Assembly: GCF_011392075.1 (NCBI RefSeq)
Contig: NZ_JAAJBV010000005.1
Span: 1 to 64,000 of the forward strand
From: Flavobacterium celericrescens
Lineage (GTDB): Bacteria > Bacteroidota > Bacteroidia > Flavobacteriales > Flavobacteriaceae
Direction of reading: 5' to 3'
Length of the DNA: 64,000 nt
Part shown: piece by piece, positions 1 through 42,475 of the stretch
Position numbering within the stretch: the stretch's first letter is position 1
How the letters are laid out: the number at the start of each line of letters is the position of its first letter
Position numbers and translations under genes: made by a program
The notes under the pieces: model-generated
Told to the model about the DNA's origin: nothing
What the model saw: only the letters and a program-made list of their open reading frames with translations
The model's database searches: none

Positions 1-372
1 ATAGTTATGTTTGGGCGGTTGATGGAGCTACTTATACTGCATCAGGAACTTATACTAACGTAGTTGGATGTCATACAGAAACATTAAACTTAACAATTAC
101 GCCAAGTACATCAAACAGTACAACAGCGTCAGCATGTGATAGTTATGTTTGGGCGGTTGATGGAGCTACTTATACTGCATCAGGAACTTATACTAACGTA
201 GTTGGATGTCATACAGAAACATTAAACTTAACAATTACGCCAAGTACATCAAACAGTACAACAGCATCAGCATGTGATAGTTATGTTTGGGCAGTTGATG
301 GAGCTACTTATACTGCATCAGGAACTTATACTAACGTAGTTGGATGTCATACAGAAACATTAAACTTAACAA
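1..372 (+). repeat. 138-bp tandem coding repeats
   Basis: A unit of exactly 138 bp (46 codons) restarts at 1, 139 and 277; the third copy departs from the consensus after about 372. Copies are almost identical at the DNA level (for example gcg/gca third-base changes only), which points to recent expansion or homogenisation by recombination. The array certainly continues upstream of the window. Confidence 0.95.
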
Positions 373-39093: not shown

Positions 39094-40269
39094 ATGAACT
39101 ATATACTTTTTGATGGAACGGTTCGCAACGCCTTACTGCCTTTTACATTTACACGACCAGTAGCAGATATTCGTGTAGGAATATTGACTATTCGTGAAAA
39201 ATGGGAGAAATATCTAGGAATTACTACAACTACTTTAACCGAAGAATACCTAATGGAAAAATATCCAATGGTAGAAATGGAACAAAATATAATGATTAAT
39301 GCATCATTTTTGCCAAATCCAATTTTAGTAGAAATGATTCAAAACTTGGAAACTCAACAAGCCGTTGTTTTTGGAGAAGAAATCGTCGCCTTTTATACAA
39401 ATGATACACAAGATGAAGTTAATTTTGATGAATATGATTTGATAGAATATGAAGGTGATATTTTGCGAATAGAAAATACATGGGATATTTTTGCAAAAAA
39501 TGATGCTGCTTTGCGAGAAGATTTTGATTTGCTTACTGAAGATAGAATTTCACAATTTATTCCTAAATCGGTTAATGTAATTGCTCCAGAAAATATTTTT
39601 ATTGAGGAAGGAGCAAAATTAGAATTTGTAACTTTAAATGCTTCGACAGGGCCTATTTACATTGGAAAAAATGCTGAAATAATGGAAGGTTCAGTAATTA
39701 GAGGTCCATTTGCTTTATGTGAATCAGGAAGAGTGAAGTTGGCAACCAAAGTATATGGAGCAACAACTGTGGGGCCACATTCTGTAATTGGTGGTGAGGT
39801 AAATAATTCGGTTTTATTCGGTTATTCTAATAAAGGGCATGATGGGTTTTTAGGGAATTCTGTTTTAGGTGAATGGTGCAATATTGGAGCAGATTCTAAT
39901 AATTCCAATTTGAAAAATAATTATGAAGAAGTGCGCTTATGGAGCTATGAAACCGAAGGCTTCGCAAAGACTGGATTGCAATTTTGTGGTTTAATGATGG
40001 GAGATCATAGTAAATGTGGAATCAACACAATGTTTAATACAGGAACTGTTGTTGGTGTTTCGGCAAATATTTTTGGATCTGGATTTCCAAGAAATTTTGT
40101 ACCTAGTTTTTCTTGGGGAGGTGCTTCAGGATTTACAACTTATTTAACTAATAAAGCTTTTCAAACTGCTAAAATAGTTATGGCGCGTAGAAATGTAGAA
40201 TTTTCTGAGCAAGATGCAAATATTTTAGAACATGTATTTGAAGAAACGAAGAAATACAGAAAGGAATAA
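39094..40269 (+). CDS. GlmU-like sugar nucleotidyltransferase family protein
   Basis: A 391-residue protein of the Bacteroidota GlmU-related family. The N-terminal half starts with NYILFDGTVRNALLPFTFTRPVADIRVGILTIREKW, a shortened nucleotidyltransferase-like domain with the LPFTFTRP variant instead of the classical GxGTRM loop. The C-terminal half (about 160-340) is a left-handed beta-helix with hexapeptide repeats (IYIGKNAEIMEGSVIRGPFALCESG, CNIGADSNNSNL, MGDHSKCGINTMFNTGTVVG). A role in envelope sugar precursor synthesis is plausible, but substrate and catalysis are unproven. It is the last gene before the sRNA array. Confidence 0.88.
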   Translation: MNYILFDGTVRNALLPFTFTRPVADIRVGILTIREKWEKYLGITTTTLTEEYLMEKYPMVEMEQNIMINASFLPNPILVEMIQNLETQQAVVFGEEIVAFYTNDTQDEVNFDEYDLIEYEGDILRIENTWDIFAKNDAALREDFDLLTEDRISQFIPKSVNVIAPENIFIEEGAKLEFVTLNASTGPIYIGKNAEIMEGSVIRGPFALCESGRVKLATKVYGATTVGPHSVIGGEVNNSVLFGYSNKGHDGFLGNSVLGEWCNIGADSNNSNLKNNYEEVRLWSYETEGFAKTGLQFCGLMMGDHSKCGINTMFNTGTVVGVSANIFGSGFPRNFVPSFSWGGASGFTTYLTNKAFQTAKIVMARRNVEFSEQDANILEHVFEETKKYRKE

Positions 40270-40297
40270 TTAAAAATATAAATTTATTAATTATGTT

Positions 40298-40366
40298 ACA
40301 CTTATTCTGTATTTCATACACTTATTAAAAAGCACTAACCCTCTAAAAAAATATTTTCTAGTTTTA
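40298..40366 (+). promoter_or_regulatory. Operator and promoter of sRNA copy 1
   Basis: ACACTTATT at 40298-40306 and again at 40318-40326 (20 bp start to start), then 10 bp, AAC of CTAAC at 40337-40339, 19 bp, TAGTTTTA at 40359-40366. No TTG at -33. Confidence 0.7.
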
Positions 40367-40372
40367 CACCAT

Positions 40373-40446
40373 TAGAAAAGGATTTTTAGTTCTGTAGGGG
40401 GAATTTAAGAATTTTAAAAGGTTTGACATTTGTCAAGCCTTTTTTT
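40373..40446 (+). ncRNA. Predicted small RNA, copy 1 (about 74 nt)
   Basis: The start is placed 7 bases after the -7 box and is an estimate. The body reads AGAAAAGGATTTTTAG (a GAAAA/TTTTT hairpin with a GGA loop), a single-stranded stretch with CTGTAGGGGGAATTT, then the terminator stem AAAAGGTTTGAC/GTCAAGCCTTTT (one G-T wobble) with loop ATTT and a T7 tail. No ORF with a start codon is present. I do not recognise the family. Copies 2 and 4 have the same body. Confidence 0.78.
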
Positions 40447-40481
40447 ATGATAATACTTGATTGTTAAAAATGAATAAATAA

Positions 40482-40572
40482 TTGCTTATTCTTAATTTTA
40501 ATACACTTATTCCAAAAATCAATACACTTATTAAAAAGCACTAACTCTCTAAAAACATTTTTTCTAGTTTTA
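40482..40572 (+). promoter_or_regulatory. Operator and promoter of sRNA copy 2
   Basis: Three half-sites at 21-bp steps: TTGCTTATT (40482), ACACTTATT (40503), ACACTTATT (40524-40532); then 10 bp, AAC at 40543-40545, 19 bp, TAGTTTTA at 40565-40572. Confidence 0.7.
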
Positions 40573-40578
40573 CACCAT

Positions 40579-40656
40579 TAGAAAAGGATTTTTAGTTCTG
40601 TAGGGGGAATTTAAGAATTTTGAAAGGCTTGACAAACGTCAAGCCTTTTGTTTTTT
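40579..40656 (+). ncRNA. Predicted small RNA, copy 2 (about 78 nt)
   Basis: Body identical to copy 1 through GAATTTAAGAATTTT. The terminator stem is GAAAGGCTTGAC/GTCAAGCCTTTTG with loop AAAC and T-tail. Relative to copy 1 a G-T wobble has become a C-G pair, which keeps the stem. Confidence 0.78.
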
Positions 40657-40690
40657 ATATACTTAATTAAAAAAAAGAAATTTTTAAACT

Positions 40691-40780
40691 ATAGTTATTC
40701 TAATATTTAAACACTTATTCCTTTAAAAGCCATAGTTATTAAAAAGCATTACTTATATAAAATTACTTTATATACTTTTA
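40691..40780 (+). promoter_or_regulatory. Operator and promoter of sRNA copy 3
   Basis: Half-sites ATAGTTATT (40691), ACACTTATT (40711) and ATAGTTATT (40732-40740); then 10 bp, ACT at 40751-40753, 19 bp, TACTTTTA at 40773-40780. The GTT core of the outer sites is the closest match in the array to the LytTR consensus. Confidence 0.68.
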
Positions 40781-40786
40781 CATCAT

Positions 40787-40862
40787 CAGAAAAGGATTTT
40801 TAGTCCTGTAGGGGGGATTTAAAATTTTAAAAGGCTTAGATTATCTAAGCCTTTTCTTTTTT
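40787..40862 (+). ncRNA. Predicted small RNA, copy 3, divergent (about 76 nt)
   Basis: The most divergent copy: CATCAG for CATTAG, AGTCCTG for AGTTCTG, six G instead of five, and one base fewer before the terminator. The GGA-loop hairpin is unchanged. The terminator is AAAAGGCTTAGA/TCTAAGCCTTTT with loop TTA: both strands of the stem differ from the other copies in a compensatory way. Confidence 0.75.
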
Positions 40863-40883
40863 ATAATATTCTTGATAAAAAAG

Positions 40884-40974
40884 ATGACTATTCTAAAATA
40901 AAATACACTTATTCCAAAAATCAATACACTTATTAAAAAGCACTAACCTTCTAAAAGCATTTTTTCTACTTTTA
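40884..40974 (+). promoter_or_regulatory. Operator and promoter of sRNA copy 4
   Basis: Half-sites ATGACTATT (40884, weak), ACACTTATT (40905), ACACTTATT (40926-40934) at 21-bp steps; then 10 bp, AAC at 40945-40947, 19 bp, TACTTTTA at 40967-40974. Confidence 0.7.
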
Positions 40975-40980
40975 CACCAT

Positions 40981-41059
40981 TAGAAAAGGATTTTTAGTTC
41001 TGTAGGGGGAATTTAAGAATTTTTGAAAGGCTCGACATTTGTCGAGCCTTTCTTTTTTA
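40981..41059 (+). ncRNA. Predicted small RNA, copy 4 (about 79 nt)
   Basis: Body as copies 1 and 2. The terminator stem is GAAAGGCTCGAC/GTCGAGCCTTTC with loop ATTT and T6; T-A in copy 2 has become C-G here, another compensatory change. It ends 87 bases before the mtaB start. Confidence 0.78.
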
Positions 41060-41146
41060 CATAGTTCTAGTTTTATTTGTAAAATTTTGTCTGTAAATTT
41101 GCAACCTCAATTTTTTGACAACGATTTCATTAATTGAGTTTTATTT

Positions 41147-42475
41147 ATGGAAAACAAGAAAAAAGTCGCATTCTATACTTTAGGATGCAAATTGAACTTC
41201 TCGGAAACGTCTACAATTGCACGTGATTTTCAAAATGAAGGTTTTGAACGTGTTGATTTCGAAGAAATTGCAGATATCTATGTAATTAATACCTGTTCGG
41301 TTACTGATAATGCAGATAAACAATTCAAGCAGATTGTTAAAAAAGCAATGAAGCTGAATGATAAAGCCTTTGTTGCCGCAGTTGGTTGTTATGCTCAATT
41401 AAAACCAGAAGAATTAGCAGCAGTTGATGGCGTGGATTTAGTTTTAGGCGCCACAGAAAAATTCAAAATCACAGATTATATTAACGATTTGTCGAAAAAC
41501 GATATGGGTGAAGTGCATTCATGCGAAATTGAAGAGGCAGATTTTTATGTAGGAAGTTATTCAATTGGAGATAGAACGCGTGCGTTTTTAAAAGTACAAG
41601 ACGGTTGCGATTATAAATGTACGTATTGTACCATTCCATTAGCAAGAGGAATTTCTAGAAGTGATGCATTGGAAAATGTATTGAAAAATGCTAAAGAAAT
41701 TTCGGAGCAAGGTATTAAAGAAATTGTTCTTACCGGTGTAAACATTGGTGATTATGGAAAAGGAGAATTCGGAAATAAAAAACACGAACACACTTTTTTA
41801 GATTTAGTAAAAGCATTAGATGAAGTAGAAGGTATCGAGCGTTTACGAATTTCTTCCATCGAACCTAATTTGTTGAAAAACGAAACAATTGAATTTGTAT
41901 CACAAAGCCGAACATTCGTGCCACATTTTCATATTCCTTTACAATCGGGTTCAAATGAGATTTTAAAAAAAATGAAACGGCGCTATTTACGTGAAGTTTA
42001 TACTGATAGAGTAACTAAAATTCGTGAAGTAATGCCACATGCTTGTATTGGAGTTGATGTAATTGTTGGTTTTCCTGGTGAAACAGATGAGCATTTCTTA
42101 GAAACCTATCATTTCTTAAATGATTTAGATATTTCTTACTTGCATGTTTTTACCTATTCAGAAAGAGATAATACTGAAGCGGTTGAAATGGATGGAGTAG
42201 TTCCAGCAAATATTCGTTCAAAAAGGAGCAAAATGTTGCGCGGACTTTCGGTTAAGAAAAGAAGAGCATTTTACGAAAGTCAAATCGGAACCAATAGAAC
42301 GGTTTTATTTGAAAGCGAAAACAAAGAAGGCTACATTCATGGATTTACAGAAAATTACGTAAAAGTAAAAACGCCTTGGAATCCAGAATTAGTCAATACA
42401 TTGCACGAAATTAATCTAACCAAGATTGACGAAGACGGAAGTGTAAGGATGGAATTCCTAAACGTTGAAGCATAA
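41147..42475 (+). CDS. mtaB: tRNA (N6-L-threonylcarbamoyladenosine-37-C2)-methylthiotransferase MtaB
   Basis: MtaB is a radical-SAM enzyme that adds a methylthio group to t6A at position 37 of tRNAs that read ANN codons. The 442-residue protein has the N-terminal UPF0004 domain with cluster ligands in YTLGCKLNFSET, NTCSVTDNADKQ and VGCYAQLKPEEL, the radical-SAM triad in QDGCDYKCTYCTIPLARG, and a C-terminal TRAM domain (about 375-440). The start sequence and the CTIPLARG motif place it with MtaB (YqeV) rather than MiaB or RimO. It stands alone and ends in a terminator. Confidence 0.95.
   Translation: MENKKKVAFYTLGCKLNFSETSTIARDFQNEGFERVDFEEIADIYVINTCSVTDNADKQFKQIVKKAMKLNDKAFVAAVGCYAQLKPEELAAVDGVDLVLGATEKFKITDYINDLSKNDMGEVHSCEIEEADFYVGSYSIGDRTRAFLKVQDGCDYKCTYCTIPLARGISRSDALENVLKNAKEISEQGIKEIVLTGVNIGDYGKGEFGNKKHEHTFLDLVKALDEVEGIERLRISSIEPNLLKNETIEFVSQSRTFVPHFHIPLQSGSNEILKKMKRRYLREVYTDRVTKIREVMPHACIGVDVIVGFPGETDEHFLETYHFLNDLDISYLHVFTYSERDNTEAVEMDGVVPANIRSKRSKMLRGLSVKKRRAFYESQIGTNRTVLFESENKEGYIHGFTENYVKVKTPWNPELVNTLHEINLTKIDEDGSVRMEFLNVEA

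Follow-up and report, generated by a model that had tools for sequence, protein, structure and literature searches.

By layout, the nearest described counterpart of the locus analysed here is the LhrC1-5 family of Listeria. Its published description reports five almost identical copies, including the four-gene lhrC1-4 locus, all of which need the two-component system LisRK, and a link to the adhesin gene lapB (PMC4132741). As characterised there, the LhrC RNAs are 111-114 nt long, carry three CU-rich sites (UCCC), have a known target and depend on LisR, whereas the RNAs predicted here would each present one G-rich loop and lie behind LytTR-type boxes; kinship in sequence between the two was judged via Rfam alone. 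With respect to control, the locus resembles RNAIII, FasX and VR-RNA, where a LytTR-domain regulator drives a regulatory RNA via paired direct repeats. The agr promoter P3 makes RNAIII, FasA drives FasX and VirR drives VR-RNA; these RNAs are single-copy and Gram-positive, whereas the array described here is tandem and belongs to the Bacteroidota. For agr, AgrA is reported to bind two direct repeats upstream of P2 and P3 (PMC4227749).

Within the same phylum, the FopS family of Bacteroides thetaiotaomicron is summarised as 14 paralogous members of ~65-70 nt that repress SusC-like transporter mRNAs and are associated with the protein RbpB (PMC11697453). The array is like FopS, compared by description only, in being a multicopy set of paralogous small RNAs (sRNAs) of the Bacteroidota. 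Rfp18 of Flavobacterium psychrophilum is outlined as a structured sRNA tied to secreted proteins (PMC9723704). Going by that outline, it differs in having its pairing site in a third stem-loop and in being widely conserved in the genus, whereas the array RNA has one hairpin plus a terminator and occurs in few species. The Qrr RNAs of Vibrio, which the original prediction offered as a parallel, are multicopy redundant sRNAs under sigma-54/LuxO control that depend on Hfq and whose copies are mostly dispersed; LhrC and the LytTR-driven regulatory RNAs are closer. Among the matches listed in our search of the sRNA literature on Flavobacterium and Flavobacteriia (open-licence PMC) there was no tandem sRNA array in Flavobacterium. 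As an sRNA array the locus is ordinary in kind, and unusual in its phylum, its layout and its linkage to adhesins.

The window, i.e. the whole stretch of DNA that was analysed (64,000 nt of Flavobacterium celericrescens), contains a gap of 877 bp (40270-41146) between a GlmU-like gene and mtaB. As had been claimed, this gene-free gap is filled by four homologous units of 194-208 bp: the starts of the 160-nt repeat lie at 40316, 40522, 40730 and 40924 (206, 208 and 194 bp from start to start), a tandem-repeat finder gives a period of 206 with 3.6 copies and a score of 717, and no ORF of at least 60 aa is present from 40269 to 41147. Ungapped identity to copy 1 is 88, 64 and 74% for copies 2, 3 and 4. 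In every unit the two boxes come first and are followed in turn by the -7 box, a short segment, the hairpin with its CUGUAGGGGG loop and the terminator; the mtaB-like gene is the syntenic anchor of the array. The features are as follows.

39094..40269, + strand: upstream neighbour, sugar nucleotidyltransferase-like (GlmU-like) gene, ORF of 391 aa (Pfam NTP_transf_4, E 1e-55)
40298..40326, + strand: unit 1 box pair, ACACTTATT and ACACTTATT, 20-bp period
40359..40366, + strand: unit 1 -7 box TAGTTTTA, 32 nt past the proximal box
40379..40415, + strand: unit 1 hairpin with loop CUGUAGGGGG (fold z -5.2; covariation)
40416..40443, + strand: unit 1 intrinsic terminator stem (fold)
40503..40532, + strand: unit 2 box pair, period 21 bp, 0 mismatches in the two boxes
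40565..40572, + strand: unit 2 -7 box TAGTTTTA
40585..40621, + strand: unit 2 hairpin (fold)
40622..40649, + strand: unit 2 terminator stem (fold)
40711..40740, + strand: unit 3 box pair, with 2 mismatches in total
40773..40780, + strand: unit 3 -7 box TACTTTTA
40793..40828, + strand: unit 3 hairpin; a U-A pair of the stem is replaced by C-G, a compensatory change (fold)
40829..40855, + strand: unit 3 terminator stem (fold)
40905..40934, + strand: unit 4 box pair, period 21 bp, 0 mismatches in the two boxes
40967..40974, + strand: unit 4 -7 box TACTTTTA
40986..41024, + strand: unit 4 hairpin (fold)
41025..41052, + strand: unit 4 terminator stem (fold)
41147..42475, + strand: downstream neighbour, mtaB-like radical-SAM methylthiotransferase gene, ORF of 442 aa (Pfam Radical_SAM, UPF0004)

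From the -7 box onward the mean column identity over the four units is 90%, in keeping with the nearly invariant body of the original prediction. Its -7 box is present in each unit in fixed register with the boxes, the folds bear out an intrinsic terminator for every unit, and its statement that no coding potential is conserved agrees with the finding that the + strand of the four bodies holds no ATG-started, stop-ended frame of more than 10 letters. The conserved upstream repeats that it described are also present, and can be refined to a single pair of ~9-bp boxes in each unit, at a distance of 21 bp (20 bp in unit 1). From the positions of the -7 box and terminator, the transcripts are predicted to be 74-79 nt long. 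As a separate observation, positions 1-845 of the window encode the last part of a protein that has tandem repeats of 138 bp (46 aa), nearly identical to one another, and an apparent C-terminal sorting domain.

Units 1-4 fold with z scores of -5.2, -4.5, -4.8 and -5.8, and 0, 1, 0 and 0 of 200 shuffles, respectively, folded as well. We aligned 16 sequences (14 distinct) with MAFFT, i.e. not fitted to the structure. Over the hairpin plus terminator, the 14 distinct sequences had 92.5% paired cells, compared with 83.8% in shuffled alignments and 43-72% when the structure was slid, and two-sided (compensatory) changes were found in 11 of the 20 base pairs; none of 500 shuffles reached the observed value on four measures, while on a fifth (further pair types) 9 did. 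For the hairpin alone (12 distinct rows), 93.8% of cells were paired and 5 of the 12 pairs showed two-sided changes, a count reached by 5/500 shuffles, with 0/500 reaching the covariation score. Shuffle tests are inflated by relatedness among the sequences, which makes the slid control the better guide, although the structure was itself derived from the same sequences. Within this variable stem the loop CTGT(A/T)GGGGG is kept in 17 of 17 rows.

Rfam 15 gave no match at gathering thresholds over the window, and the 29 sub-threshold matches at E up to 10 do not include Flavo-1, the alternative that had been left standing. The idea of an undescribed tandem sRNA family is supported by the lack of an Rfam match, by compensatory changes across species and by promoter boxes at a fixed distance in 7 of 13 copies; and the compensatory changes, which exceed both the shuffled and the slid controls, support the view that the copies are under selection as an RNA family. 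At the level of sequence the units have the features of independent small RNA genes, namely a promoter, a structured body, a terminator and no conserved frame. Judged in this way the tandem array is a real RNA family, for which we found no earlier description in the literature searched.

The window's own genome, which is 99.96% complete and comprises 2.8 Mb in 38 contigs, shows no copy besides those of the array. We built a model of the hairpin from 17 sequences, drawn from six genomes and a named metagenome-assembled genome (MAG); it matched 6 of 398 genomes of the genus, i.e. the own genome, G115, G239, G253, G366 and G377; among 299 genomes of the family it matched the own genome and, weakly (35.6 and 34.0 bits), two sites that lack the core loop. 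This model replaced a whole-unit model that had hit 35 of 199 genomes at E 0.01 (at least 30 loci); of 13 loci inspected out of 30, only that in G115 was a homologue by eye and the others were terminator-like. The core pattern with up to 3 mismatches gave 47 matches in 40 of the 398 genomes, against 30 for the reversed control, and 29 loci inspected included three homologues (G115, G366, G377), most of the others being coding-like. The exact core pattern occurred in 16 stretches of genome_contigs, a collection that covers 84,980 species with a single genome each; seven of the stretches are homologues and nine, by context, are not. All seven are from uncultured MAGs, which correspond to G115, G253, G366 and G377 or are Flavobacterium sp. 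UBA6195, and there is a hint of lake and effluent habitats; none is from a named cultured species in that collection, from which records near the window were possibly excluded. In viral_contigs, none of 7 exact-pattern stretches was a homologue.

Copy number is four in the window, G366 and UBA6195, two in G239 and G253 (where contigs end) and one in G115 and G377, and hence at least two homologous copies are present in the genomes of the window, G366, G239 and G253. The UBA6195 array closely resembles that of G366. Both flanking genes were seen in five genomes (window, G115, G239, G366 and G377), while G253 shows one flanking gene on each of two contigs and the UBA6195 stretch only mtaB. MtaB identity to the window is 98.6% in G366, 96.6% in G115, 95.7% in G239, 95.5% in G253 and 93.0% in G377. 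The RNA is absent at the locus from G032, G023 and G012, whose MtaB proteins (98%) are the closest of 100 genomes searched. The first copies in G366 and G239 have a common stem end, ACAATA, and the last copies share AAATTAAAGT, so the duplication seems older than the split between these two genomes. A small reverse ORF (90 aa in G115) lies in the gap between the GlmU-like gene and mtaB in G032, G023, G115 and G239 and is missing from the window; in G115 and G239 the RNA adjoins it.

The boxes ACACTTATT are 21 bp apart in units 2-4 and 20 bp apart in unit 1, and lie 32 nt from a -7 box of the form TA(G/C)TTTTA, which is TAnnTTTG-like. Searching the window for the 21-bp pair with up to 3 mismatches gave 4 matches (one overlapping another) against 0.31 expected and a maximum of 2 in 100 shuffles; unit 1 is not among the four because its period is 20. 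Promoters were measured in 14 copies, of which 13 could be assessed for boxes, as the sequence upstream of the -7 box is just 21 nt long in one G253 copy. Seven of the 13 (window 1-4, G115, copy 4 of G366 and copy 2 of G239) have a proximal box whose start lies exactly 42 nt upstream of the -7 box and a distal box starting 62-63 nt upstream of it, with 17-20 of 20 letters matching over the pair. In the other six the boxes are absent or degenerate: copy 2 of G366 has one box, at -42, and the second G253 copy has boxes matching 8 and 8 of 10 letters at -64 and -43. Good boxes are lacking in front of the RNA in G377 and in one G253 copy; the -7 box is perfect in G377 and in both copies of G253 (TAAGTTTG, TAAATTTG). 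The chance of finding a -7 box in the search range is 0.52 per copy at 1 mismatch and 0.04 at 0 mismatches, so a one-mismatch box says little by itself and the fixed register matters more.

In its spacing and its distance to the promoter, this arrangement (TACACTTAT-12 bp-TACACTTAT, with 33 bp between its end and the -7 box) is of the LytTR type. The original prediction mentions neither this geometry nor the boxes at adhesin operons described below. Published accounts describe LytTR sites as repeats of 9-11 nt, 11-13 nt apart, with no common consensus (PMC4847170), e.g. ACCACTTAT-12 bp-ACCGCTTAT, mostly 12 bp apart and biased to lie 10 bp upstream of the -35 element (PMC6193735). The published ACCACTTAT-12-ACCGCTTAT sites resemble the array boxes, whose ~9-bp repeats have a spacer of 12 bp in units 2-4 and 11 bp in unit 1, and all four window units are among the 7 of 13 copies with 42 nt to the -7 box. 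By our own arithmetic, 10 + 6 + 17 = 33 bp would be expected to the -10 element, equal to the 33 bp of the array. As LytTR sites have no common consensus, the array agrees with them more in layout than in letters. The array is most likely LytTR-activated.

We looked for pairs of these boxes in eight genomes. An independent-letters estimate gives ~0.4 chance pairs per genome at up to 2 mismatches and 0.02 at up to 1, and at up to 3 mismatches the counts were like those of the reversed control. Outside the arrays there were six rows with up to 2 mismatches (two overlapping), in the own genome, G239, G366 and G032, for a chance expectation of ~1.7 in these four genomes and ~2.1 in the five computed. 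With six rows against about two expected, sites with 2 mismatches alone are near chance, and we therefore place the weight on sites with 0 or 1 mismatch, on orthology and on gene neighbourhood; one G239 site was disregarded on account of masked letters close to it.

The boxes in the own genome (2 mismatches) and in G239 (0) precede the same operon, which encodes a protein of 175-177 aa and a giant protein whose first 1664 aa, taken from the own genome, contain Pfam GEVED, SprB repeats and an L-type lectin domain. In G366, which has three boxes (1 and 2 mismatches), the contig ends inside the first gene of this same operon. In G032 the boxes (2 mismatches) lie in front of the gene for a protein of 1335 aa that carries CshA repeats and a type IX secretion signal; PorP/SprF comes next. 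G032 has boxes at its adhesin but no RNA at the array locus, nor is it among the hairpin-model matches elsewhere. From the proximal box to the -7 box there are 32 nt in the array and in G032, and 52, 52 and 53 nt in the own genome, G239 and G366, i.e. about two helical turns more than in the array. Between the own genome and G239, the operon's first gene and the beginning of the adhesin gene are almost identical, and part of the leader is common to the own genome and G366; near-identical adhesin genes behind differing box regions suggest recent transfer of the adhesin genes.

Further along the G032 cluster are genes for a histidine kinase with a GAF domain and, ~7.5 kb from the boxes, for a LytTR response regulator; in G366 a LytTR regulator gene lies divergent, ~1.3 kb from the boxes; in the own genome the orthologous kinase-regulator pair is on a different contig from the adhesin boxes. 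The own genome has six LytTR genes, five besides this candidate, and it is from gene neighbourhood that we infer which of them would bind the boxes. The regulator orthologue is present in the own genome, G239, G366 and G032. G115, with perfect boxes at its RNA, has no orthologue at E 1e-20, its nearest LytTR protein among the 19 of 25 loci that were compared being 30% identical; the homologues of G253 and G377 show 47 and 43% identity, and the boxes there are poor or absent. By eye, the candidate regulator (G000:C7:103478-104230 in the own genome) and its G032 counterpart have Asn (LIFFNP, LLFMNP) at the expected phospho-accepting Asp, which is kept in G366 and G023 (LLFLDP, LIFLDP), and receiver function may differ between species. 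Beside another LytTR gene of the own genome, near G000:C3 73625-73948, is a radical-SAM gene matching prokaryotic viperins (PADLOC pVip-kinase E 2.9e-133, pVip E 3.4e-91), a candidate anti-phage gene.

Our main reading, to which we give a probability of about 0.58, is that the locus is a LytTR-activated, multicopy array of trans-acting sRNAs, co-regulated with surface adhesins. It would consist of four paralogous sRNA genes, each transcribed from its own promoter, which a LytTR-type response regulator would activate by binding a pair of 9-bp boxes ~21 bp apart. Each RNA, of ~75-80 nt, would have a short 5' end, one hairpin exposing the invariant G-rich loop CUGUAGGGGG and a terminator, and copy number would set the RNA dose. 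The same regulator probably also activates the operons for type IX-secreted surface adhesins, in which case the RNAs would be the post-transcriptional arm of a surface and adhesion programme. A regulatory role is plausible, and the invariance and exposure of the loop point to it as the part that would act in trans, putatively by base pairing.

We used the loop to search for targets. With assumed start sites, its duplex energies with the adhesin-operon leaders were no better than those of shuffles (P 0.48 in the own genome, 0.36 and 0.14 in G239, 0.69 in G366), and those with the adhesin start (P 0.89), the mtaB gene (0.74) and the GlmU-like gene (0.63) were at chance level. CCCC motifs in the adhesin leaders were rejected as loop complements, the energies being no better than shuffles; that of the own genome lies upstream of the predicted -7 box and so would not be transcribed. 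The loop complement CCCCCTACAG with up to 1 mismatch gave 81 matches in four genomes against 48 for the reversed control, 11 of them in arrays and 70 outside; 69 of the latter were placed (one G115 site was omitted), 45 antisense, 19 in sense coding and 5 in intergenic positions. Among the genes carrying the complement in sense or upstream, no orthologue recurred, the only likeness being one weak 29% match between two proteins, and the exact complement occurred outside arrays once in the four genomes, antisense to a G115 gene. Despite their excess over the control (70 outside the arrays against 48), these near-complements gave no recurring target and were not taken as target evidence.

That the loop-complement search found no conserved mRNA complement is in line with the main rival, in which the loop would bind an RNA-binding protein and the copies would titrate it, as CsrB and RsmX do with CsrA. 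An invariant loop in a variable stem and the sharing of an identical loop by several copies also fit this idea. However, each RNA has a single loop, no candidate protein was identified and, to our knowledge, CsrA is generally lacking in the Bacteroidota; we consider a protein sponge unlikely, while giving it some weight.

The position of the array, directly upstream of mtaB wherever the contig covers that side, would also suit a leader or attenuator acting in cis on mtaB, in place of independent RNAs. This is quite improbable: each unit is closed by its own terminator, the -7-like sequence TGTAAATTTGCA near the mtaB start suggests a separate mtaB promoter, and the array-less relatives inspected by eye mostly retain a TAnnTTTG-like sequence there. 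Nor do we give much credence to the possibility that the array acts as DNA, with tandem LytTR boxes titrating the regulator and the transcripts as by-products. Eight boxes within 0.7 kb would serve that purpose, and two of these four pairs match exactly with a 21-bp period, but compensatory changes keep the RNA structure, and copies without good boxes (G377, one in G253, copies 1-3 of G366 and copy 1 of G239) keep the loop. A dispersed repeat, MITE/REP-like element or functionless tandem duplication, which would account for the tandem repetition and for the lack of the array at the locus in G032, G023 and G012 (98% MtaB), is very hard to reconcile with the compensatory changes, the promoter spacing and the same two flanking genes in five genomes (window, G115, G239, G366, G377), and its dispersed form was rejected because the own genome has no further copy outside the array.

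Returning to a LytTR-activated array of trans-acting sRNAs, we suggest tentatively, and with clearly less confidence than in that reading, that it is the RNA half of a LytTR adhesion switch in freshwater Flavobacterium, which would combine adhesins with identical-loop RNAs that reprogramme other mRNAs or titrate an RNA-binding protein. If this is true, one regulator would fire both giant type IX-secreted adhesins and a burst of RNA from up to four tandem promoters. We know of few sRNAs of the Bacteroidota that have a known regulator. The mRNAs of this phylum are said to lack Shine-Dalgarno sequences (PMC6847099), and the predicted regulator class, the co-regulated adhesins and the mutable loop would together make sRNA action testable in such a phylum, with the one to four copies found at one locus as a natural series for dose effects.
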